In this document: piece by piece, positions 26,577 to 38,388 of the stretch
Numbering within the stretch: the first letter of the stretch is position 1
Layout of the letters: every line of letters begins with the position of its first letter
Notes under the pieces: model-generated
The model's database searches: none
What the model was told of the DNA's origin: nothing
Seen by the model: only the letters and a program-made list of their open reading frames with translations
Source of the DNA: an uncultured Ignavibacteria bacterium
GTDB lineage: Bacteria > Bacteroidota > Ignavibacteria > SZUA-365
Direction of reading: 5' to 3'
Assembly (NCBI GenBank): GCA_913061095.1
Contig: CAJXVM010000007.1
Location: 62,001 to 126,000, forward strand
DNA: 64,000 nucleotides
Program-made: the position numbers and the translations under genes

Positions 26577-29500
26577 ATGGACGACCGTGTGACATGGCTG
26601 AGGCGCGAGCAGCGCTGGATGTATGTAACGGCGATGCTGCTGTTACTGCTCTCGCTGGTATTCGCCGGCAGGGAGTATTTTCTCCGTCATGTCAATCAGA
26701 ACTGGGAGAATCTGAACGCGGAAGTCAACCGCGGGCAGGCAGAGCTTATCGAACGCCGGTTGCAGGATCTTCTCCGGGCACTCGAGGAACAGAGCGCCGC
26801 GCTGCACGCTGAACGCCCGGAGGATCTCTACGGCGGGGAAGACGATCCCCGCCGCCGGGCGGATGCCGCACGACGTCTGAAGGAAACCGTCCCGAGCCAG
26901 CGCTGGTCGTTCGAACTTCGGGATCCCGCCGGCAGGCTTCGCGCCTTCAGCGGAGAACCCATGACAGCCGCCCCGCGCCGGTCCGATCATTCCCCCGGCA
27001 CATCACCATCCGCATTCACCGTCATCCAGCGCCTGCCCTACGTGTTCCTGACACACACGTCTGCCATTGTCAGCGGCACCGGCGATACACTCGGATCCCT
27101 GCGCGTCGGGACACCGCTCAGTACAACGGTTCCCATCAACCGCCGATTCATCGCGGAAGAAGGATCCATCGGGGACCTGGGACGCGAACTCGACCTGGAT
27201 CTCAGTTTCCACAGAGATGCGCGCACCGCGGGCCGCAGCCTCATGCTGCTGCCGTTTTCCGCAGCAGACGACACGCTCGGCTGGGTGACATTCCACACCG
27301 CAGATCGTGAAACCTATCTGCAGCAGATCATCCTGCAATTCGACCGCGTGATCGGCGTGCTGCTGATGGCTGTCTTCCTCGTGGTCTCTGTTCCCGTTTT
27401 CCGGATCTATTTCAATCTGCATCCCCTGACAGCGGCCCTGTGCATCGCCGTGCACATATGGCTGATCCGCTATCTGCTGCTGTTTCTTGACGTCGGGACG
27501 AATCTCCTCCCCGGCCCGCTGAGCGATCCCGCCTGGTTCGCCTCCACGTTCGGAGGGGGTATCACAAGCTCCCCGGGAGAACTCCTGTTCTCTCTGCTCG
27601 CGCTCGTTCTGACCATGATGTTCGTCTACCGGGTCATCCTCGGCGATCGCGGCCGCGATGTACGTCTCCTCGTGGCGCTGCTGATCTTTGTCGCGGTGTT
27701 CGCCCTCCTGCCCTTCGTGCTGAGGGGATACACCGCCTCGCTGCGCAGTTTCGTGATCGATTCGACATTCAACTACGACGACATCGCCGGCTTCCTCGAG
27801 CGCCCGATGTTTCTTCTCATGATCGCGAACGCGTTCCTGCTGTCGCTCGCACTGGGATTCGGACTGCTCGGCATGTACCTGCTGGCCAAGAAAGCGGTAT
27901 CCGCCATCGCTCCTCCCCGCCTGCGCCTGCCGCTGCTGGCGGGGGGCGTACTCCTGGGCATCGTCCTCCTTCTCGCGACAACCCACGCGCTGCTCCTTCC
28001 GCTGTGGACATACATCCTGATCGGGATGCTCTTCTGCGTTCCGCTGGTCGTTCGGGTCCCGCCGATTCACGGGTGGTCTGAATCCCTCGTCGCTCCGTTC
28101 GCCGTCACGACCGTCGTCGGTTCGGTGCTGACCATCGCTCTGTTCGGGCATTTCATGGAAGTCAAACGCAGCAGCGAAATCGAAGCAATCGCCATCGATC
28201 TCTCCCGGCCGGTGGACGGCTGGTCACAGGTACTGATGGAACAGACGCTGCAATACGTCTCGCGCAGCAGAATCGACGAACTGCCCGGCGGCAATGATCG
28301 TGATGGTCCTGACTATGAGGCGGCATTCCGCATCTGGGCGGGCTCGCCGCTGAGCCGCCGTCAGAACAACTCCGCCATTCTCCTGCTCGACTCCAGCCGC
28401 ACACTCGTCTCGCGATTCGCCGTCGGCAACGATCCCTTCCTTCTTTCGGTGCAGACCCTGTCTTCCACGATCGAAAGCACCGAGGGCATCGTGCAATCCA
28501 CCTACCGCTGGCAGGAGACACGCGGGCGCCGTTACCTTCGCGCCTACACCGACATTCCGACCGGCCGCCTTGGCACACTGACCGCGGTGGTGGTGCTCGA
28601 AGCGCTCGATCCCATGCAGATGACCCGCCAGTCCATCGATCTTCTCCGCAACACCGCATCGAATGTCAGCCTGGCACCGGAAGACAACTTCATCATCAGC
28701 CGTTTTCGCGACGGACGCGTGATCCAGACCACCGACCGCCGTCTGGAACGCAGCATCCGCCTGCCGCAGAAGGTCCGCGCGTCATTCGCGGGCGGACGGC
28801 AGACGGCCTGGAGCACACTCCCTGTCGAGGGTGACTCGCTCGATAGCTACTTCATGGCCGTCTCGGATCCGCACACCGAAGTGCTATCCATCACGCGCGG
28901 GAAATCCGTCCTGATTCTGTCGATTTATCGCGGACTCCGCATCGCCATGCTGTACCTGCTGTTCAGCAGTCTCATCCTCGTCGCCGTTGCCCTGCTCACC
29001 GGCCGTTTCCGCCGGCTGTCGCGGCTCACCTTCGCACGGAAACTGCAGCTCGCTCTGCTCGCCGTCGCGGCAATCCCGCTGCTGCTGATCTGGATCACCG
29101 GACGGGATTTTGTCCGTGACACCACCCGCCGGGAGATTGAGCAGCAGGTTGTCGAGGATCTGGACGTCCTGCGCGCGAACCTGCTCGAACGCCTGCCCGA
29201 CAGCGTGTCGGTTACCGCCCTGCCGGCTTTCGTCAGCGACCAGATCTGCCAGGAAATCCGCATCCGCTCGGGACGCGACATCAATGTGTACAGCGGGCCC
29301 GAGCTGACGGCGACGAGCAAGCCTGAACTCTACAAAGTCGGGCTGCTCAGCAATCGTCTGAACCCGCAGGCATACGTGAACATCGTTCTGCTCGGCCGCG
29401 ACGTTCATTTCGCGGCGGAACAGATCGCGGATTTCTCCTATTACGTCGGCTATCGTGCGCTGCGCGATCCCGACGGCCTGCTTTCAGCGGTGATCTCGAC

Positions 29501-30458
29501 CCCGACACTTTTTCAGCGGGGACAGATGGAAAGCGGATACGTGCGTGCCTCCGCCACGATTTTCCTCTGGATCACGATCATGGCGCTGCTTGTGTTCGCG
29601 GTGAGCAGCACGCTGGCCCGGCAGATCTCGCGTCCCCTCAAGGAGCTGCTGCGCGCCACGCGGGATATCACCGCGGGGGATCTCAACCGGCGCGTGCAGG
29701 TGCACGGTTCGGCGGAGATCGTGGATCTGATGGATTCCTTCAACACGATGACCACGCGTCTGCGCCAGAGCCAGGAGGAACTCGCCGCCGCCGAGCGTGA
29801 ACTTGCATGGAAGGAAATGGCCAAACAGGTCGCGCATGAGATCCGCAATCCCCTGACACCCATGAAGCTGGCCGTGCAGCATCTCCAGCGCGCATGGCAC
29901 GACGGCGCGGCCCAGCTCGGGGATATCATCGACAAGGTCACACGGACACTGGTGGATCAGATCGAAAGCCTCTCGCGCATCAGCGACGAGTTCTCGCGCT
30001 TCGCGCGGATGCCGAGACGTTCGACATCGGCGGTGGATGTCGCCGCGACGCTCACCGAGTCAGTCGCCCTCTTCCACAGTCACGACGAGATCATCTTCGA
30101 GACGCAGATCGACAACAATCTCCCTTCCGTACTCACGGATCGCGAGGAGCTCGCCCGCGCCTTCACGAACATCCTTCGGAACGCGGTTCAGGCCATGCCG
30201 GAGGGTGGCCGCGTGCAGGTGAAAGCCGAACGCAGCCGGAATACGATTCTCATCACCGTCGCTGACAGTGGCAGCGGTATTCCCCCGGAGCTGCTTTCGC
30301 GGATTTTCGAACCGAATTTTTCCACAAAAACCGAGGGCATGGGCCTCGGGCTCGCCATCGTCAAGAAAATCATCGACGATGCGGGCGGAAGCATCGCCAT
30401 CGACAGTACACCCGGCGAAGGAACGACCGTACGCATCAGCCTGCCCGGCGCCGAGTGA
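26577..30458 (+). CDS. Large multi-TM sensor histidine kinase (NtrY-like C-terminus)
   Basis: HAMP region RQISRPLKELLRATRDITAGDLNRRVQV; H-box VAHEIRNPLTPMKLAVQHLQRA; ATPase SGSGIPPELLSRIFEPNFSTKTEGMGLGLAIVKKIIDDAGG. Confidence 0.94.
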   Translation: MDDRVTWLRREQRWMYVTAMLLLLLSLVFAGREYFLRHVNQNWENLNAEVNRGQAELIERRLQDLLRALEEQSAALHAERPEDLYGGEDDPRRRADAARRLKETVPSQRWSFELRDPAGRLRAFSGEPMTAAPRRSDHSPGTSPSAFTVIQRLPYVFLTHTSAIVSGTGDTLGSLRVGTPLSTTVPINRRFIAEEGSIGDLGRELDLDLSFHRDARTAGRSLMLLPFSAADDTLGWVTFHTADRETYLQQIILQFDRVIGVLLMAVFLVVSVPVFRIYFNLHPLTAALCIAVHIWLIRYLLLFLDVGTNLLPGPLSDPAWFASTFGGGITSSPGELLFSLLALVLTMMFVYRVILGDRGRDVRLLVALLIFVAVFALLPFVLRGYTASLRSFVIDSTFNYDDIAGFLERPMFLLMIANAFLLSLALGFGLLGMYLLAKKAVSAIAPPRLRLPLLAGGVLLGIVLLLATTHALLLPLWTYILIGMLFCVPLVVRVPPIHGWSESLVAPFAVTTVVGSVLTIALFGHFMEVKRSSEIEAIAIDLSRPVDGWSQVLMEQTLQYVSRSRIDELPGGNDRDGPDYEAAFRIWAGSPLSRRQNNSAILLLDSSRTLVSRFAVGNDPFLLSVQTLSSTIESTEGIVQSTYRWQETRGRRYLRAYTDIPTGRLGTLTAVVVLEALDPMQMTRQSIDLLRNTASNVSLAPEDNFIISRFRDGRVIQTTDRRLERSIRLPQKVRASFAGGRQTAWSTLPVEGDSLDSYFMAVSDPHTEVLSITRGKSVLILSIYRGLRIAMLYLLFSSLILVAVALLTGRFRRLSRLTFARKLQLALLAVAAIPLLLIWITGRDFVRDTTRREIEQQVVEDLDVLRANLLERLPDSVSVTALPAFVSDQICQEIRIRSGRDINVYSGPELTATSKPELYKVGLLSNRLNPQAYVNIVLLGRDVHFAAEQIADFSYYVGYRALRDPDGLLSAVISTPTLFQRGQMESGYVRASATIFLWITIMALLVFAVSSTLARQISRPLKELLRATRDITAGDLNRRVQVHGSAEIVDLMDSFNTMTTRLRQSQEELAAAERELAWKEMAKQVAHEIRNPLTPMKLAVQHLQRAWHDGAAQLGDIIDKVTRTLVDQIESLSRISDEFSRFARMPRRSTSAVDVAATLTESVALFHSHDEIIFETQIDNNLPSVLTDREELARAFTNILRNAVQAMPEGGRVQVKAERSRNTILITVADSGSGIPPELLSRIFEPNFSTKTEGMGLGLAIVKKIIDDAGGSIAIDSTPGEGTTVRISLPGAE

Positions 30459-30535
30459 TCGGGATCCGGGAGTTCCGCCTTGCTTCTCAGCGCCTCCGTC
30501 GCTAATTTTCCTAATTGAAACCAGAGACGTTGTCC

Positions 30536-32080
30536 ATGTCATTTCTCGTTACCGCAAGAAAATACCGGCCCTCCACCTTCCAGGAAGTTGTCGCTCAGGG
30601 ACATGTCGTCAACACCCTTCTCAATTCAATCACCCTTGACCGGATCGCGCATGCCTATCTGTTCACGGGTCCCCGTGGTGTCGGCAAGACCACGACGGCG
30701 CGAATTTTTGCCAAAGCGCTGAACTGTCCGAACGCGGAAAAGGGTGAGCCCTGCAATACCTGCGACACCTGCGTGGAGATTTCCCAGGGACGAAGCATGG
30801 ACGTTATCGAAATTGACGGTGCGTCGAACAACAGCGTCGACCAGATTCGCGCCATCCGCGATGCGGTGCGCTATACGCCGACGCGTGACAAGTATAAAAT
30901 GTACATCATCGATGAGATCCACATGCTGTCGAAGAGCGCCTTCAACGCGCTGCTGAAGACTCTCGAGGAACCGCCGGCACATGCGATCTTCATCTTCGCC
31001 ACCACGGAACCGCACAAGCTGCTTCCCACCGTGATCTCACGCTGCCAGCGGTATGATTTCCGGCGCATTGCGACGGATGACATTGTCGAACAGCTCAGGC
31101 ACATCTGCACAGCGGAAGAAATCGAGGCCGAGGATGCGGCGCTGTTCGCCATCGCTCGCCGTGGTGACGGCTCCATGCGCGATGCCGAAAGTATTTTTGA
31201 CCAGGTCGTCGCATTCAGCGGCACATCCCTGACGTACGATGACGTCCGCCAGGTGCTGCATTTCGTCGATCAGGATACATTTTTTCACCTGACAGATCTG
31301 ATCGTCACGAACAACAGCAGCGGGGGATTCGCCCTTGCCGAACAGGTCGTGATGAGCGGGTACGATATTCAGGATTTTCTGCAGGGTCTCGAGGAACATT
31401 TCCGCAATATGCTCGTGGTACGGTCCACGGGCGATGTGCGACTGATCGAGGCCCCGGCTGATGTGCGTGAGCGCTACATGCAGCTCGCCGAGCACTTCAG
31501 CGAAGGCGATCTTCTGCGTCTGCTGAAGATTACCGCCCAGGCCATGCAGGCCGTGCGCTACAGTCCGCAGCCTCGTCTCAAGTTCGAGGTCGCGCTGATT
31601 GACATGATCAAGATGGACAGTACCATCGAGATCAGCACCCTGCTCTCAAACCTCGGCTCGGGCGGATCTCCGCAGATCCTGCACGCAGGCGGCACGGATG
31701 GCGCGGGCAATGCCGCATCCAACCGTTCAGCCGCATCCGCTGGCACCGCCTCCGGCGCTGCCGCCTCCGGTGCTGCCGCATCCGGTACCGCCCCGGACAG
31801 GCGCGGGAATTCCCGTTCGGCCGACGCATCCGACGCGTCGGATGCCACCGAGCCCCTGCGCAGGGCCGAGAAGCGCTTCAAACAGGCGCTGCACTCCGCC
31901 TCGCTCTCCGCGGTCGCTCCGTACGGTCCTCCGCCACCGTCGCCGGAACCGCCGCAGCAGTCCCTTGGACGGGAACAGGCCGACACGCAGAACAATACGG
32001 ATGCCCCCGTGGCGTCGCCTCCTCCTATCGTACAGATGCTCATCAATGACCTCGGTGCCGTCCTCATCAAGGGATCATAA
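30536..32080 (+). CDS. dnaX: DNA polymerase III subunit gamma/tau
   Basis: LVTARKYRPSTFQEVVAQGHVVNTLLNSI...AYLFTGPRGVGKTTTARIFAKALNC...IIDEIHMLSKSAFNALLKTLEEPPAHAIFIFATTEPHKLLPTVISRCQRYDF. Confidence 0.96.
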   Translation: MSFLVTARKYRPSTFQEVVAQGHVVNTLLNSITLDRIAHAYLFTGPRGVGKTTTARIFAKALNCPNAEKGEPCNTCDTCVEISQGRSMDVIEIDGASNNSVDQIRAIRDAVRYTPTRDKYKMYIIDEIHMLSKSAFNALLKTLEEPPAHAIFIFATTEPHKLLPTVISRCQRYDFRRIATDDIVEQLRHICTAEEIEAEDAALFAIARRGDGSMRDAESIFDQVVAFSGTSLTYDDVRQVLHFVDQDTFFHLTDLIVTNNSSGGFALAEQVVMSGYDIQDFLQGLEEHFRNMLVVRSTGDVRLIEAPADVRERYMQLAEHFSEGDLLRLLKITAQAMQAVRYSPQPRLKFEVALIDMIKMDSTIEISTLLSNLGSGGSPQILHAGGTDGAGNAASNRSAASAGTASGAAASGAAASGTAPDRRGNSRSADASDASDATEPLRRAEKRFKQALHSASLSAVAPYGPPPPSPEPPQQSLGREQADTQNNTDAPVASPPPIVQMLINDLGAVLIKGS

Positions 32081-32151
32081 GACACACGGCCCGGCCGAAG
32101 GCTCCGCTCTTCCAGAGCAACTGAATCTGCATTTTCACAAGAGATTATCAC

Positions 32152-34686
32152 ATGTTCATCAGCAGTATTTCCGGTGCGGTCACCGACCTCACCCCGAACA
32201 ACCAGACCCGCTTCCAGTGCACGGTCACCCTTTCCGTCCCACAGGAAGAATTCACGGCAATCGAACCCGGACGCCTGATCGCGGCGGAAAACGTCTACCA
32301 CGCTGCACGTTCCAAGCGCTACACGATTCTGCAGATCGTGGACGTGTTCCCAACCCCGGATGAGCAGAAGACAGCGAAGAAAACCCACATTTCGCTGCGC
32401 TGCACCGCCACGCCGATCGGCCAGGAGCTGCGCTACAAAAACGCCCGCACCGGACCGGAGATCTACAGTGAAGACACCTTCCCCGCCTACGACGGGAAGA
32501 TCGAGGTGCTCGATGACGACATGACCCGTGCCGTCATCCATCACATCGCGCCGGAAAGCCGCCTGCAGGAAAACGGCTCACGCATCGACATCGGTCATTA
32601 CCGCAGTAATCCCGAGGTCAATGTCGGACTCGACGCGGTCACACTGCTGCGCGGCAACGCCGCTGTACTCAGTGCCCGCCCGCGGGCCCGCACGACGATC
32701 GTCAATACGCTCATCCAGTCACTGCTTCAGGATACTGAACATCCGGTGCATATCGTCTACTGCGATGTCAACAACCTCGGCACGCTCTCCCTCGCCCCGC
32801 TCATCTCGAACTTTGAGCGCGCGGGCATTCTCGGACTGAACGACAAATTCATTCCGTCGAGCGTGTTCAATTCCATGCGCAATCCGGGCGACCGCTCGGC
32901 GCACAAGCGCGCCGTGCTGGATTACCTCGACATGATGATCCTGCCCTCCGTGCTCGAACAGCGCCGCCATGACTTCAGCTATGCCATCTCCAGCTGGCTG
33001 CGCGATCACCGCATCGCGATCTTCCGGCCGCATGAGCAGAAGGTGGACGAGTTCATCAATGAAATCCGTGTCGATATTCTCGACGGCGTCGAGGAGGATG
33101 CGGAGGAATACATATCCGAGCTCATGCAGGGCATCGCCGAGACCTACCGCGGGGAGCGCTTTACCGAGAAAAACACGCGCGACATGCTCGACATGGTCGA
33201 TGAATTCAGCCAGGAATCGAAAAGTCATTCCGCGCGGCGGACGCTCTACGATCTCAAGGCGGAAATCGAGTCCGTGTACGAAACCTACTCGAAAGACATC
33301 CCCGCCGCGGCGCGAAAATCCATCCCGGACATCGTCTCCCAGCTCAACGACGACAGCAGTTCCAGTCTGCTCGTCGTGCAGGGCCAGAAGACCACCGATA
33401 TTCTGCGATTCATCGGCACACTTTCGCAGACCCTGATCGAGGAACGTCTCAAGCGCCTGAAAATTCGCGTACCCGTCCTGTTCATCTTCAACAACGTCGA
33501 CGACTACGTGGGACGCAACGGTGCGGCAACACGCGAGCCCGGCTCCGACCGGTTCAACGACACCATTCAGACGCTGCTGACAAACGGACGGCGACACGGA
33601 CTCGGATTCTGTCTGACACTGGAAAACGCGGTGTCTCTCGATCGCATGCTCGCCAGCCGTGTCCAGAACTACTTTATCGGCCCGATTACGTTCGTCAACG
33701 AGCCCGCCCGCATTGCCGATCTGCTGAACCTCTCCGAGGAGCTGCTGCATCCGGCCGTGCGCTACGAGGATGGAGATTTCCTCTTCACCTCCGCTGAATC
33801 GCCCTATCACCGCCGCGTTCCGCTGCCGGTGGTGGCGCAGAAGAACAGCGAAGTAATCCATCAGTTCCTCGATGAACTCCGTGTCGAGCAGGAACGACGA
33901 CGCCAGGAATACATGGCGCAGGAGGAAGAGCGGCGCAAGCGTCAGGAGGAAGAACGCAAGCGCCAGGAGGAGGAACGCAAGCGTCAGGAGGAAGAGCGGA
34001 AGCGTCAGGAGGAGGAACGCAAGCGCCAGGAGGATGAGCGCAAGAAGGAAGAGGCGGCCAAAGCGGAATCCCCCGATGATGCGGATGAGCAGGGAGAGGA
34101 TACGGCCGAGGAAAGCAGGGAAAAGGAAAAACCGACGACGCGCACGCGCAGAAAGCGCGGGGGACGCCGCTCGAAGTCCACTTCGAAAGATACTGCCGAG
34201 GCGAAGGACGTCAGCGAGAAAGACACACCGGAAGAATCCTCCGGGAAGGCTGATGACGCATCTGACGGGAACGCGGAACATGTCGAGGCACAGGGTGTGG
34301 ACGATGCCAAAAAGGAGCAGGAAGAGAAGGATACCAAGAAACCCGCCGCACGCAAGACCTCCCGTGGCCGCCGTGGGGGCCGGGGACGCAAATCCCCCGC
34401 GAAGTCGGACAACAGCTCGACTGATGATTCCGGCAAGAACGATCCCCAGCAGGGAACGGCATCCGCCGGCAAAGATGATGCGGAATCCGGCCTGAAGATC
34501 GAGGAATTCGATCCGAATGCTGGAAAGAGCAATTCAGACAAGGACAAAAAAGACGATGACGGCAATCCGCCCGCAAATGCCAAAGCCGCGGACACAGATC
34601 CGGAAAAGAAGCCCCGCCGCTCAACTCGACGCCGCAGCACCCGTTCGAAAAAATCCTCATCGACGAAAAAGAAAGGAGAGGAATAG
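32152..34686 (+). CDS. HerA-like protein with degenerate Walker motifs and charged C-terminal tail
   Basis: HAS-barrel-like N-terminus; IGHYRSNPEVNVGLDAVTLLRGNAAVLSARPRARTTIVNTLIQSLLQ aligns with the HerA pre-P-loop/P-loop region; VPVLFIFNNVDDYVG at the Walker B position; then RQEEERK repeats and a Lys/Arg-rich tail. Confidence 0.6.
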   Translation: MFISSISGAVTDLTPNNQTRFQCTVTLSVPQEEFTAIEPGRLIAAENVYHAARSKRYTILQIVDVFPTPDEQKTAKKTHISLRCTATPIGQELRYKNARTGPEIYSEDTFPAYDGKIEVLDDDMTRAVIHHIAPESRLQENGSRIDIGHYRSNPEVNVGLDAVTLLRGNAAVLSARPRARTTIVNTLIQSLLQDTEHPVHIVYCDVNNLGTLSLAPLISNFERAGILGLNDKFIPSSVFNSMRNPGDRSAHKRAVLDYLDMMILPSVLEQRRHDFSYAISSWLRDHRIAIFRPHEQKVDEFINEIRVDILDGVEEDAEEYISELMQGIAETYRGERFTEKNTRDMLDMVDEFSQESKSHSARRTLYDLKAEIESVYETYSKDIPAAARKSIPDIVSQLNDDSSSSLLVVQGQKTTDILRFIGTLSQTLIEERLKRLKIRVPVLFIFNNVDDYVGRNGAATREPGSDRFNDTIQTLLTNGRRHGLGFCLTLENAVSLDRMLASRVQNYFIGPITFVNEPARIADLLNLSEELLHPAVRYEDGDFLFTSAESPYHRRVPLPVVAQKNSEVIHQFLDELRVEQERRRQEYMAQEEERRKRQEEERKRQEEERKRQEEERKRQEEERKRQEDERKKEEAAKAESPDDADEQGEDTAEESREKEKPTTRTRRKRGGRRSKSTSKDTAEAKDVSEKDTPEESSGKADDASDGNAEHVEAQGVDDAKKEQEEKDTKKPAARKTSRGRRGGRGRKSPAKSDNSSTDDSGKNDPQQGTASAGKDDAESGLKIEEFDPNAGKSNSDKDKKDDDGNPPANAKAADTDPEKKPRRSTRRRSTRSKKSSSTKKKGEE

Positions 34687-34689
34687 CGC

Positions 34690-35475
34690 ATGCGTCTTGT
34701 TTCGTGGAATGTCAACGGCATTCGCGCCATCGCAAAGAAGAATTTTTTCGACTATCTCGAGGACGAATCCCCTGACATTCTCTGCCTGCAGGAGACCAAG
34801 GCGCACGAGGATCAGCTTGACGAAACCCTGCTGACGCCGCCGGGATACTTCACGCACTGGCATTCCGGCGAGCGCCGGGGGTACAGCAGTGTGGCGACGT
34901 TTTCGAAAAAGCGTCCGACCGCGGTGCGCAGGGGAACGGACATCATTCCGATGGACACCGAGGGACGCGTGCTTCGCACGGATTTCCCGCAGTTCGCGCT
35001 GTACAATATTTACTTCCCAAACGGGGGACGGGGCGAGGAGCGTCTGCGTTTCAAATTGGATTTCTACGACCAGATCCTCGAACACTTCGAGGAGGAGCGC
35101 AAAAAGGAGCTCCCGCTGATCATCTGCGGCGACGTCAACACCGCCCATCACGAAATCGATCTCAAGAACCCGAAGCAGAACGAGAAGACCTCCGGGTTCA
35201 TGCCCATCGAGCGCGCCTGGCTCGACCGCATCACCGATCTGGGATACATCGACACGTTCCGCCATTTCCATCCCGATGCGGCGGATCAGTATTCCTGGTG
35301 GGACATGCGCACGCGGGCGCGCGATCGCAACGCCGGCTGGCGCATCGATTACTTCATCGTCACCCCCGACCTGATCGATTACTGCAGGGACGCCTCCATC
35401 CAGATGGATGTCATGGGATCGGATCACGCACCCGTCATCCTCGATCTCAAGCGCACCCTCCCGAAACGGATGTAA
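34690..35475 (+). CDS. xth: Exodeoxyribonuclease III
   Basis: MRLVSWNVNGIRAIAKK...DILCLQETKAHEDQLD...ICGDVNTAHHEIDL...WRIDYFIVTPDL...GSDHAPVILDL. Confidence 0.95.
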   Translation: MRLVSWNVNGIRAIAKKNFFDYLEDESPDILCLQETKAHEDQLDETLLTPPGYFTHWHSGERRGYSSVATFSKKRPTAVRRGTDIIPMDTEGRVLRTDFPQFALYNIYFPNGGRGEERLRFKLDFYDQILEHFEEERKKELPLIICGDVNTAHHEIDLKNPKQNEKTSGFMPIERAWLDRITDLGYIDTFRHFHPDAADQYSWWDMRTRARDRNAGWRIDYFIVTPDLIDYCRDASIQMDVMGSDHAPVILDLKRTLPKRM

Positions 35476-35507
35476 CTGCCGGTTTCGATGAATCCAGCGA
35501 ACCGGGA

Positions 35508-35580
35508 CAGGGCCGAGCCAATGGCTCGGCCCTGCTGATTATGGCGGGTTCCGGAACCAGGCCGAGCCGCTGGCTCGGCC
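35508..35580. repeat. Two tandem GGCCGAGCC/GGCTCGGCC palindromic elements
   Basis: 35508-35534 CAGGGCCGAGCCA-A-TGGCTCGGCCCTG (13-bp stem) and 35560-35580 GGCCGAGCC-GCT-GGCTCGGCC (9-bp stem). Confidence 0.88.
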
Positions 35581-35592
35581 CTACAGTCGATC

Positions 35593-38388
35593 CTATTCGA
35601 TTCTCGTTACGCCGGGGAAACGCATGAGATTGCGGGCGGGCGAGGAATGGATCTCCTCCCGCGCACGCACGCGTACCGTTCCCGGACTCAGAATCTTCAC
35701 GAAATATCCTTTCCCCGCGACAAACATGCCGTCGGCGGGATACAGATACCCGTATACGGGATCGAATTCATAGGGATTGGTGAACATGCCTGACGGAGCT
35801 TCAACGACTTCGGATACCGGGCAGGGACCGCTTGGCATGCCAAAGAGGTTCCAGCCGGTTTCATCAGCGCCGTATGTGACGACAATGTCGCGAATCATGA
35901 CGCCGTCGAGCACGACGCTGTCGCGTTTCGCGAATTTGATCCAGTACGCCGTCGCGCCCTTCACCGATGAGCGCATGACATACCCGGAATCCGAATCCCA
36001 GGCATAGGCCGGCGGAATCGCATCCGGAAACAACGTCTGCAGGTCGTTCTCGTCGGGATCCAGCGGAATGGACACCAGGTTCCATCCCTCGTGATAGCGG
36101 AACATCAGGCTGCGTCGGCGCAGCGTCAGCGTGAAATCCGCACCGATCTCGAAATTGTTGAGCGGACGAAAAGCCCTCTGCGCGGGATCGCTGCGGTAAT
36201 AGTAGCTCGCGGGCATGATGTCGTAATCGCCCGAAGGTAGATACTCGAGCGCGTACTTCCCGTCCTGTCCGCTTTCTGCGGTAACCTCCGCCTCGCCGAA
36301 GGAACGCACGGGAATCCAGCCGACAGGCGCACCCGTCGGATCACGCAGCGTACCCGAGACGGAATACACCCGCTGAGCCGTGATCGTCAGTTCCACCGGA
36401 ATTTTCATCCCGGCATTTTCGGCGTTGCCACCCATGGTGATCTCCGCCCGGTACATGCCCTCCGTCATGGCGGTCGAAGTGATCTGTACCTCGACGGTAT
36501 CGATATTCGCCGTGCCGGCTCGCGGAGTGACCGTGAGCCAGTTGGCGCTGCCCACATCGGCCGTCCACGAGAGCAGACCCCCACCCGCGTTGCGGAGAAA
36601 GAGAAGCTGCGGGGGTGGAAGCGGCGCATTGCGCGAGAGTGTCAGGGCAATCGACGCCGGGCGGACATCGAGAACGGGCTTCGGCTCGCGGATGCCGACT
36701 TTCGTTGCGCGATCCTCGAGCCCGGTGCTCGTGGGCGTACGCACACGGACATGGGCATCTCCGGTTTCGGGAGCGGTGACATTCCATTTTACACTGCCTG
36801 TGGATGCATCGCCGGCATTGTACAGCGTCTCAGTCCACGTGGAGCCGCCGTCCCGTGATAGATCAACCGTGACATAGTGCAGTCCCTGCGCATTCCAGGT
36901 GATATCGACGGTTTCACCGATCGTCCATTGATCCCCGCTCTTGGGAGCCGTCAGTGTCAGGGACGGCTCGGAAGGCAGGTCCTCGGAACGATAGAAATAG
37001 AACTGCGAAAAGCCGTAGTAGTTCGAGCCGTGGTTGTAGGAACCCGAGGCATCGAGCACATCCCCGTCGAAATGGTAGTTGCCCGCGAGGCCGGTGGATC
37101 CGCCGGAGATTTCACGCCGGTAGTTGTCGGCGATGGCGAGATCACTGCGCGCGGTGTTCCAGATACGCAGTTCGTCCATCATGCCATGATACCCGTAAAG
37201 GGTGTTGGCCGATGGTGAGGACGAGGAGGCGCCGAGGACAATCGGAGCGTTGTTCGACGGCCCCTCCGTGGTGTAGTTTTTCTGTCCCCGCGGCAGTCCG
37301 TTGATGAATATGGTGGCCGTGTATTTCCCGCTTCTTCCGGAGAATCGCACGGCAACATGCGACCATTTGCCGATCGAAACAGCGGCAGCGCTCTCGAACC
37401 AGTCCTGCGTGTCGCCGTTCGGAATGTACCGGATGCGGTTGTTCGTCTTGTTGATGCCGATCCACACCGGATACTGCGGAGCGATTGCCACGGTCTTGCA
37501 GAACAGCGTCTGGAACTGTGAATGGCCCCCGGAGGTGGAGGGCTTGATCCAGCATTCGATCGTGTAGTTGCTGCGCAGTTCGAGATCCTTGCTGTAGGGA
37601 ATCAGGAAATGATCGACCGACTGCATGGGCGTGGACATATTCCGGAACCAGATGCCGATGCGCGAATAAAACGGCGGATCCGGTGTCGCGGCGTACGTAA
37701 CGGTGCCGACGGGGCTTCCGTTGTTGCCGCCCACGGGATCGCTTCCGTTCCCGTTCAGTCTCCAGCAGGCAAGGAGCTGTCTGCCGTAGAGACCGCCCGC
37801 GACCGCGTGAGGGATTTTGTAGAGATCGCCCTCAGCGGATGAAAAATCGATGAGGCCCCTCCATATGCGGACTTCGTCAAGCAGACCGCGCCAGTAATCC
37901 GTTGCGCTGGCGCCGGACCTGTCGGCACCGATGCGCAGGTCACTCTTTGCATATCCGATCCAGGTCTGCGGGGCGCTGACGCTCCGGTCAAGCGCGCCGT
38001 TGATGTAGAAGCGAACGACCTGCGTTTCCGGATAATAATGCACGCCGATGTGCGTCCAGACATTGGCACTGATCGTCGATTTGCTCTCGAAGGCGTCCTT
38101 GGGATTGAGAAGGAACCGCACTCTTCCGCTGCTGTTGAGCCCGAACCAGTATCCGCTGCTCCTGTCGTTCCCGATGACTGCCATGTTCGTGCCGATGGAT
38201 GTTGGGCGCACCCAGGCATCCATGGCCACGATACCGGCAGAAGAAAGCCCCTCATTCAGATTGTCACTGTACGGCACGGAGATATACCCCGTACCGGAGA
38301 GCCGCAGGGAACTGTTGACACCGCTGTACTGGGCGGCGAGGGAGCACGGGAGCAGCAGCAGAACGATGATGACTGTAATGCGTGGCAT
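35593..38388 (-). CDS. Secreted protein with two LamG/concanavalin-like domains
   Basis: Signal peptide; AGIVAMDAWVRPTSIGTNMAVIGND... and NYTIECWIKPSTSGGHSQFQTLFCK... LamG-like repeats; C-terminal GWNLVSIPLDP module. Confidence 0.8.
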   Translation of the reverse strand: MPRITVIIVLLLLPCSLAAQYSGVNSSLRLSGTGYISVPYSDNLNEGLSSAGIVAMDAWVRPTSIGTNMAVIGNDRSSGYWFGLNSSGRVRFLLNPKDAFESKSTISANVWTHIGVHYYPETQVVRFYINGALDRSVSAPQTWIGYAKSDLRIGADRSGASATDYWRGLLDEVRIWRGLIDFSSAEGDLYKIPHAVAGGLYGRQLLACWRLNGNGSDPVGGNNGSPVGTVTYAATPDPPFYSRIGIWFRNMSTPMQSVDHFLIPYSKDLELRSNYTIECWIKPSTSGGHSQFQTLFCKTVAIAPQYPVWIGINKTNNRIRYIPNGDTQDWFESAAAVSIGKWSHVAVRFSGRSGKYTATIFINGLPRGQKNYTTEGPSNNAPIVLGASSSSPSANTLYGYHGMMDELRIWNTARSDLAIADNYRREISGGSTGLAGNYHFDGDVLDASGSYNHGSNYYGFSQFYFYRSEDLPSEPSLTLTAPKSGDQWTIGETVDITWNAQGLHYVTVDLSRDGGSTWTETLYNAGDASTGSVKWNVTAPETGDAHVRVRTPTSTGLEDRATKVGIREPKPVLDVRPASIALTLSRNAPLPPPQLLFLRNAGGGLLSWTADVGSANWLTVTPRAGTANIDTVEVQITSTAMTEGMYRAEITMGGNAENAGMKIPVELTITAQRVYSVSGTLRDPTGAPVGWIPVRSFGEAEVTAESGQDGKYALEYLPSGDYDIMPASYYYRSDPAQRAFRPLNNFEIGADFTLTLRRRSLMFRYHEGWNLVSIPLDPDENDLQTLFPDAIPPAYAWDSDSGYVMRSSVKGATAYWIKFAKRDSVVLDGVMIRDIVVTYGADETGWNLFGMPSGPCPVSEVVEAPSGMFTNPYEFDPVYGYLYPADGMFVAGKGYFVKILSPGTVRVRAREEIHSSPARNLMRFPGVTRIE

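Follow-up and report, generated by a model that had tools for sequence, protein, structure and literature searches.

HerA relatives of published function burn ATP, moving DNA into a nuclease or a defence effector; TdpA is part of a defence system, and a precedent for the retention of degenerate ATPase domains is found in EccC/EssC of type VII secretion, members of the FtsK/HerA superfamily. The catalytic site of HerA has been dissected by mutation: the substitutions K154R, E356Q, and R381K leave an ATPase activity which is very low or undetectable (PMC4351679), K154A also impairs the binding of dsDNA in Sso HerA (PMC5715905), and a double mutation of Walker B abolishes the ATPase of D. radiodurans HerA (PMC9960219); the role of D176, the Asp closing strand 2, has been described as well (PMC4351679), and K363 is a lysine of the pore contacting the DNA (PMC5715905).

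The gene described here lies in a window of 64,000 nucleotides (the whole stretch of DNA analysed; see Table 1) and codes for a protein which is related to HerA and yet lacks both motifs defining the active family; it is hereafter called pseudo-HerA. No description of a catalytically dead, stand-alone HerA was found in the literature searched, the coverage of which was incomplete. If true, a stand-alone and vertically inherited HerA devoid of catalysis, with a new and fixed sequence in place of the catalytic site, would mean that the ring itself can be the useful part, and that an entire bacterial order possesses an unrecognised component of its replication/repair machinery; a fuel-burning site that has been replaced and then kept almost constant by evolution suggests that a motor has been converted into an immobile scaffold. 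The idea of a pseudo-ATPase is directly testable, because the substitutions correspond to published inactivating mutations of HerA.

Table 1. Features of the pseudo-HerA locus and of related loci (window positions unless another locus is named)
Feature	Position	Strand	Remarks
dnaX	30536..32080	+	directly upstream; Pfam DnaX domains; adjoins the pseudo-HerA gene in 14/14 genomes
pseudo-HerA gene	32152..34686	+	844 aa; open frame, HerA profile match, orthologs
HAS-barrel-like N-terminal domain	32152..32556	+	approximately residues 1-135; AlphaFold2 and Foldseek
replaced Walker A, SARPRART	32671..32694	+	residues 174-181; R180 aligned with the catalytic Lys (hhalign register)
D205, retained Asp closing strand 2	32764..32766	+	invariant; HerA D176 position (hhalign register)
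replaced Walker B, PVLFIFNNVDD	33472..33504	+	residues 441-451; N447-N448 aligned with HerA E355-E356
R455	33514..33516	+	position of the pore lysine K363 of Sso HerA; invariant
GRRHGLGF	33586..33609	+	residues 479-486; R480 aligned with the trans arginine R381; gapless with HerA GRKFGVGL
charged E/R/K repeat helix	33901..34059	+	probable single alpha-helix; 21-nt repeat, KRQEEER
low-complexity, hydrophobic-poor tail	34060..34683	+	three Arg-rich patches and one short motif, LKIEEFDPNAGK
xth, exonuclease III family	34690..35475	+	downstream; Pfam Exo_endo_phos; synteny
carboxymuconolactone decarboxylase-family gene	L067 9091-9660 (reverse-complement coordinates); L069 6181-6750
SIR2-HerA pair of the host genome	L001 958-3804 (G000:C30, about 40.9-43.8 kb)		PADLOC

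Genomic Context and Distribution

The frame of pseudo-HerA runs uninterrupted through its 844 codons; the gaps given in the initial annotation, 71 nt from the dnaX stop and 3 nt to xth, agree with the coordinates, and the neighbours are identified via Pfam. Scans for promoters and terminators over positions 30300-35700, which are weak predictors, returned no terminator on the + strand between the three genes. In a search of the window's own genome, xth was the single match and no second copy was found. Shortly 5' of dnaX is the gene of a 1293-aa sensor histidine kinase (26577-30458), whose pairing with dnaX is retained in several relatives.

Within one order, 14 of the 16 genomes carry the pseudo-HerA gene; it was detected nowhere else in the class (a sample of 197 genomes) nor, except for the window's own genome, in a sample of 396 genomes of the phylum. 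The two remaining members of the order, with a completeness of 88% and 74%, are also devoid of an assembled dnaX, so that pseudo-HerA is present wherever a dnaX region of the order was assembled and examined. The gap between dnaX and pseudo-HerA measures 48-78 nt in all 14 genomes, and xth is the next gene downstream in most of them; one genome has a gap of 198 nt at this place, and in another the contig ends before xth. In two genomes of one family, a carboxymuconolactone decarboxylase-family gene (189 aa) is found between pseudo-HerA and xth. Of the dnaX-xth synteny, whose conservation the initial annotation proposed to check, the dnaX side thus stood in every genome carrying the gene, while the xth side proved weaker, given the gene intervening in one family and the 198-nt gap. 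In 16 outgroup genomes, over short flanks only, dnaX is followed by neither a HerA-like gene nor xth; NurA, detected by the same search in 7 of 14 control genomes, was found in none of the 16 genomes of the order. The dnaX-pseudo-HerA-xth cluster is vertically inherited.

Kinship with HerA

Pfam and NCBIfam gave no usable match for the window protein, the best PHROG match (1.1e-4), over the helical insert, is to a family without assigned function, the PDB, queried by sequence with the profile and with a single ortholog, returned nothing, and no relatives were found in viral contigs. The PADLOC HerA model, on the other side, matches residues 78-543 (E=3.5e-9), and the models of this family match 12 of the 14 orthologs, with a best E of 1.3e-15. 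When the profile of the 14 orthologs was compared by hhalign with 12 HerA proteins from related genomes, 387 collinear columns were aligned with a probability of 90.6% (P=1.3e-6) and a score of 58.6, to be set against at most 30.2 in 60 profiles with shuffled columns and 27.5 after reversal of the profile; FtsK (a four-sequence alignment) and DUF853 reached a probability of 0.2% each. The support is uneven, in that a group of four HerA proteins including the SIR2-associated HerA of the same genome (L001) yields 96.2% (2.3e-9) and eight closely related HerA proteins alone only 4.4%.

Structural predictions point in the same direction. The AlphaFold2 model of the N-terminal domain (pLDDT 80.8, pTM 0.76) retrieved HerA proteins as its top Foldseek matches (best E 7.7e-4; TM 0.45-0.53 of the query). 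The model of residues 1-589, built from only 8 close sequences, is for that reason poor (pLDDT 52, with TM values to its matches of about 0.25); in a fold search over 350,542 chains, HerA and TdpA structures come top, HerA structures being retrieved first, and this ranking is supportive of the kinship, though short of proof. The HerA-type layout with a HAS-barrel N-terminus, as initially proposed, is therefore borne out by PADLOC, hhalign, and AlphaFold2/Foldseek, and the FtsK profile fails as an alternative: the protein is of the HerA lineage, composed of a HAS-barrel and a RecA-like core, with a kinship well beyond chance.

The Replaced Walker Motifs

The initial annotation, which regarded both nucleotide motifs as degenerate, had located them exactly (for LFIFNNVDD, residues 443-451, positions 33478-33504), and the orthologs bear it out. 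The Walker A position reads SA[RK]PRART in 14/14 orthologs, with codon changes that are synonymous only, except at R/K176, and the Walker B position reads LFIFNNxD[DE] in all of them, D450 and D/E451 being conserved throughout; the canonical GxxGxGK[ST] and hhhh[DE]E of HerA are both missing in every ortholog, and no Walker A pattern is found anywhere else in any of the 14 sequences. In the hhalign register, R180 aligns with the catalytic K154 of HerA and all three glycines of the P-loop are gone. At the Walker B site the alignment with Sso HerA is gapless, PIIAVIEEAHVFLSK (349-363) facing PVLFIFNNVDDYVGR (441-455), so that PVLFIFNN and the following residues match PIIAVIEEAH of Sso HerA without gaps; the initial comparison is to be refined here, since the Walker B of the nearest HerA ends in EE, the two residues that have become NN. 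An alternative P-loop, with the QGQK stretch (residues 410-413) among the candidates, was considered and rejected, since the protein has no sequence of the Walker A type and this stretch falls on the strand LDVSGLP of HerA.

Other elements of the site are retained. The residues R178, A179, R180, T181, D205, N447, N448, D450, and R480 are invariant among the orthologs, as is the whole of G479-G483, which includes R480, the equivalent of the arginine finger; R455 follows N448 by seven residues, just as K363 follows E356 in Sso HerA, and for the second lysine of the pore, K420, the alignment register shows no conserved counterpart.

The published K154R mutant reproduces the natural state of pseudo-HerA, and the position of E356 is occupied by Asn. 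Because the K154R, E356Q, R381K, and Walker B mutants of HerA are ATPase-dead, the loss of ATP hydrolysis is a well-founded inference with good support; as to the "non-hydrolysing scaffold" of the initial annotation, the argument is strong for its first word, the scaffold being a more conjectural proposal.

Selection on the Core and on the Motifs

The dN/dS of the core, relative to the window gene, ranges between 0.06 and 0.29 among the orthologs, values which are rough since dS is near saturation. Although identity falls to 53%, the motif codons of the 14 orthologs vary almost only synonymously. The best conserved 8-residue window of the core is PVLFIFNN (8/8 invariant), followed, among non-overlapping windows, by GRRHGLGF, LDMMILPS, and SARPRART (7/8); three of these four correspond to the Walker B, arginine-finger, and Walker A sites of HerA. 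Neither decay nor a sequencing error can have produced such motifs, because they are invariant, their codons are nearly synonymous, and their sites are among the best conserved windows. None of the 14 orthologs displays intact motifs, the observation that would have spoken against the initial proposal, and the intact frame, taken there as an argument against simple decay, is accompanied by low dN/dS and by intact frames in the orthologs. The motif replacements have become fixed, and no part of the protein is more strongly constrained.

The C-Terminal Helix and Tail

Past residue 580 a charged helix begins, followed by a tail of about 170-250 residues in the 13 full-length orthologs compared. 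The tandem repeat of the window gene (33934-34044) has a 21-nt unit, and a charged repeat is seen in most orthologs; the copy number and the repeat unit of the KRQEEER helix vary among them, the charged helix being probably of variable length. The Arg-rich patches of the tail are TRTRRKRGGRR, TSRGRRGGRGRK, and RRSTRRRSTRS, and a short motif, LxIEEFDPNAGK, occurs in 9 of the 13 full-length orthologs, where it may possibly serve for docking. The C-terminus would be typical of a flexible, nucleic-acid-binding tether bearing a docking motif.

A Proposed Role and Its Alternatives

The reading that we favour, with moderate confidence, is that a HerA translocase was captured beside dnaX and is now a pseudo-ATPase ring or scaffold, equipped with an Arg-rich tail, in replication or repair. 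The capture of this DNA translocase would probably have occurred at the base of the order; catalysis would then have been lost, while the fold, the arginine finger, and the basic residue of the pore loop were kept. The subunits may still form a ring, in which the old active site would have become a rigid interface, R480 and the SARPRART loop of one subunit meeting N447/N448 of its neighbour; R455 of the pore loop and the Arg-rich tail could hold DNA or RNA, and the face of the HAS-barrel, where NurA docks in HerA, could dock another partner. The old site might today be an immobile contact between subunits, or else have acquired a new binding function. That the subunits form a ring, that they bind DNA, and that they have partners is in each case less certain than the loss of hydrolysis, and a partnership with the DnaX clamp loader or with the Xth nuclease is what the gene order, by itself, suggests. 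Some caution is due: K154A impairs dsDNA binding in Sso HerA (PMC5715905), so that DNA binding may have suffered when the site was lost, the pore lysine K420 lacks a conserved counterpart, and the model of residues 1-589 is poor. A bolder version, in which the domesticated HerA is a core replication/repair factor of one bacterial order, the dead site a new binding site (for a ligand, nucleic acid, or the adjacent subunit) and by now the best preserved part of the protein, and the whole a static ring which encircles DNA and is linked to the clamp loader, appears to us tentative and on balance doubtful.

Conservation of the kind expected of an active site would be explained just as well by a pocket which has gone on binding a ligand. 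It is conceivable, if rather unlikely, that the site has ceased to accept ATP in the usual manner and that the arginines of SARPRART and the two Asn residues bind a nucleotide second messenger, phosphate, or the backbone of DNA or RNA, making the protein a ligand-controlled switch; that the old active site is more constrained than any other part of pseudo-HerA, and more than a mere leftover needs, speaks in favour of this, but the subunit interfaces of the fold share the same site and would give equal constraint. A role on the RNA side, with a HerA-derived scaffold whose RGG-like, Arg-rich tail binds RNA and for which the dnaX neighbourhood is incidental, we hold to be unlikely. Such Arg-rich, charged, hydrophobic-poor tails resemble RNA-binding tails, and that of pseudo-HerA combines RGRRGGRGRK-like and TRTRRKRGGRR patches with an extended charged helix and a hydrophobic content of about 4%; the relatives of HerA, however, act on DNA, and the neighbouring genes are those of DNA replication and repair.

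That the protein is still an active ATPase with unusual motifs, Arg replacing the P-loop Lys and D450 and D/E451 replacing the Walker B acids, is very improbable: both acidic residues are indeed conserved in all orthologs, and the arginine finger and the Asp of strand 2 are kept, but the P-loop has lost its Lys together with three glycines and no other Walker A exists, each of K154R, E356Q, and R381K on its own abolishes the ATPase of HerA (PMC4351679), and D450 aligns with the His of EEAH, two residues past the catalytic Glu. Hardly any credence can be given to an inert passenger or a decaying gene in the dnaX operon, as the degenerate look of the motifs by eye might suggest, in view of the dN/dS values, the invariant motifs, and the frames intact in all orthologs; in the most distant family, moreover, pseudo-HerA evolves about as slowly as xth (53% versus 52% identity).

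Comparison with Known Systems

The best profile match of pseudo-HerA is the defence HerA of the SIR2-HerA (Nezha-type) system (96.2% for the four-protein group containing L001; PDB 8wiv, 8j4u), with which it has in common the HAS-barrel, the P-loop region, and the linker motif preceding it. The defence protein has intact GSTGSGKS and EEAH, stands beside a SIR2 gene, and is sporadic, whereas pseudo-HerA has neither motif and belongs to the dnaX cluster, its neighbours being dnaX and xth, with no SIR2 gene beside it. An intact defence-type SIR2-HerA pair is present in the same genome (PADLOC, HerA E=7.8e-155, SIR2 E=6.8e-108).

With the end-resection complex HerA-NurA (Sulfolobus, 4d2i; Deinococcus, 7wrx), pseudo-HerA shares the domain layout, R480, D205, and R455 occupying the positions of R381, of the strand-2 Asp, and of the pore-loop K363, respectively; it differs in the replacement of K154 by Arg and of E355-E356 by Asn-Asn, in the loss of the glycines, in the absence of NurA, and in the addition of a long C-terminal tail. 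TdpA of TdpAB (PDB 8wfd), the second-best fold match of the pseudo-HerA model, was solved with an ATP analogue bound and has therefore kept nucleotide binding; this and its place in a defence system set it apart from pseudo-HerA. Finally, the degenerate domains of EccC/EssC are arranged in tandem within a larger, active secretion protein, whereas pseudo-HerA is a stand-alone protein of the HerA type.
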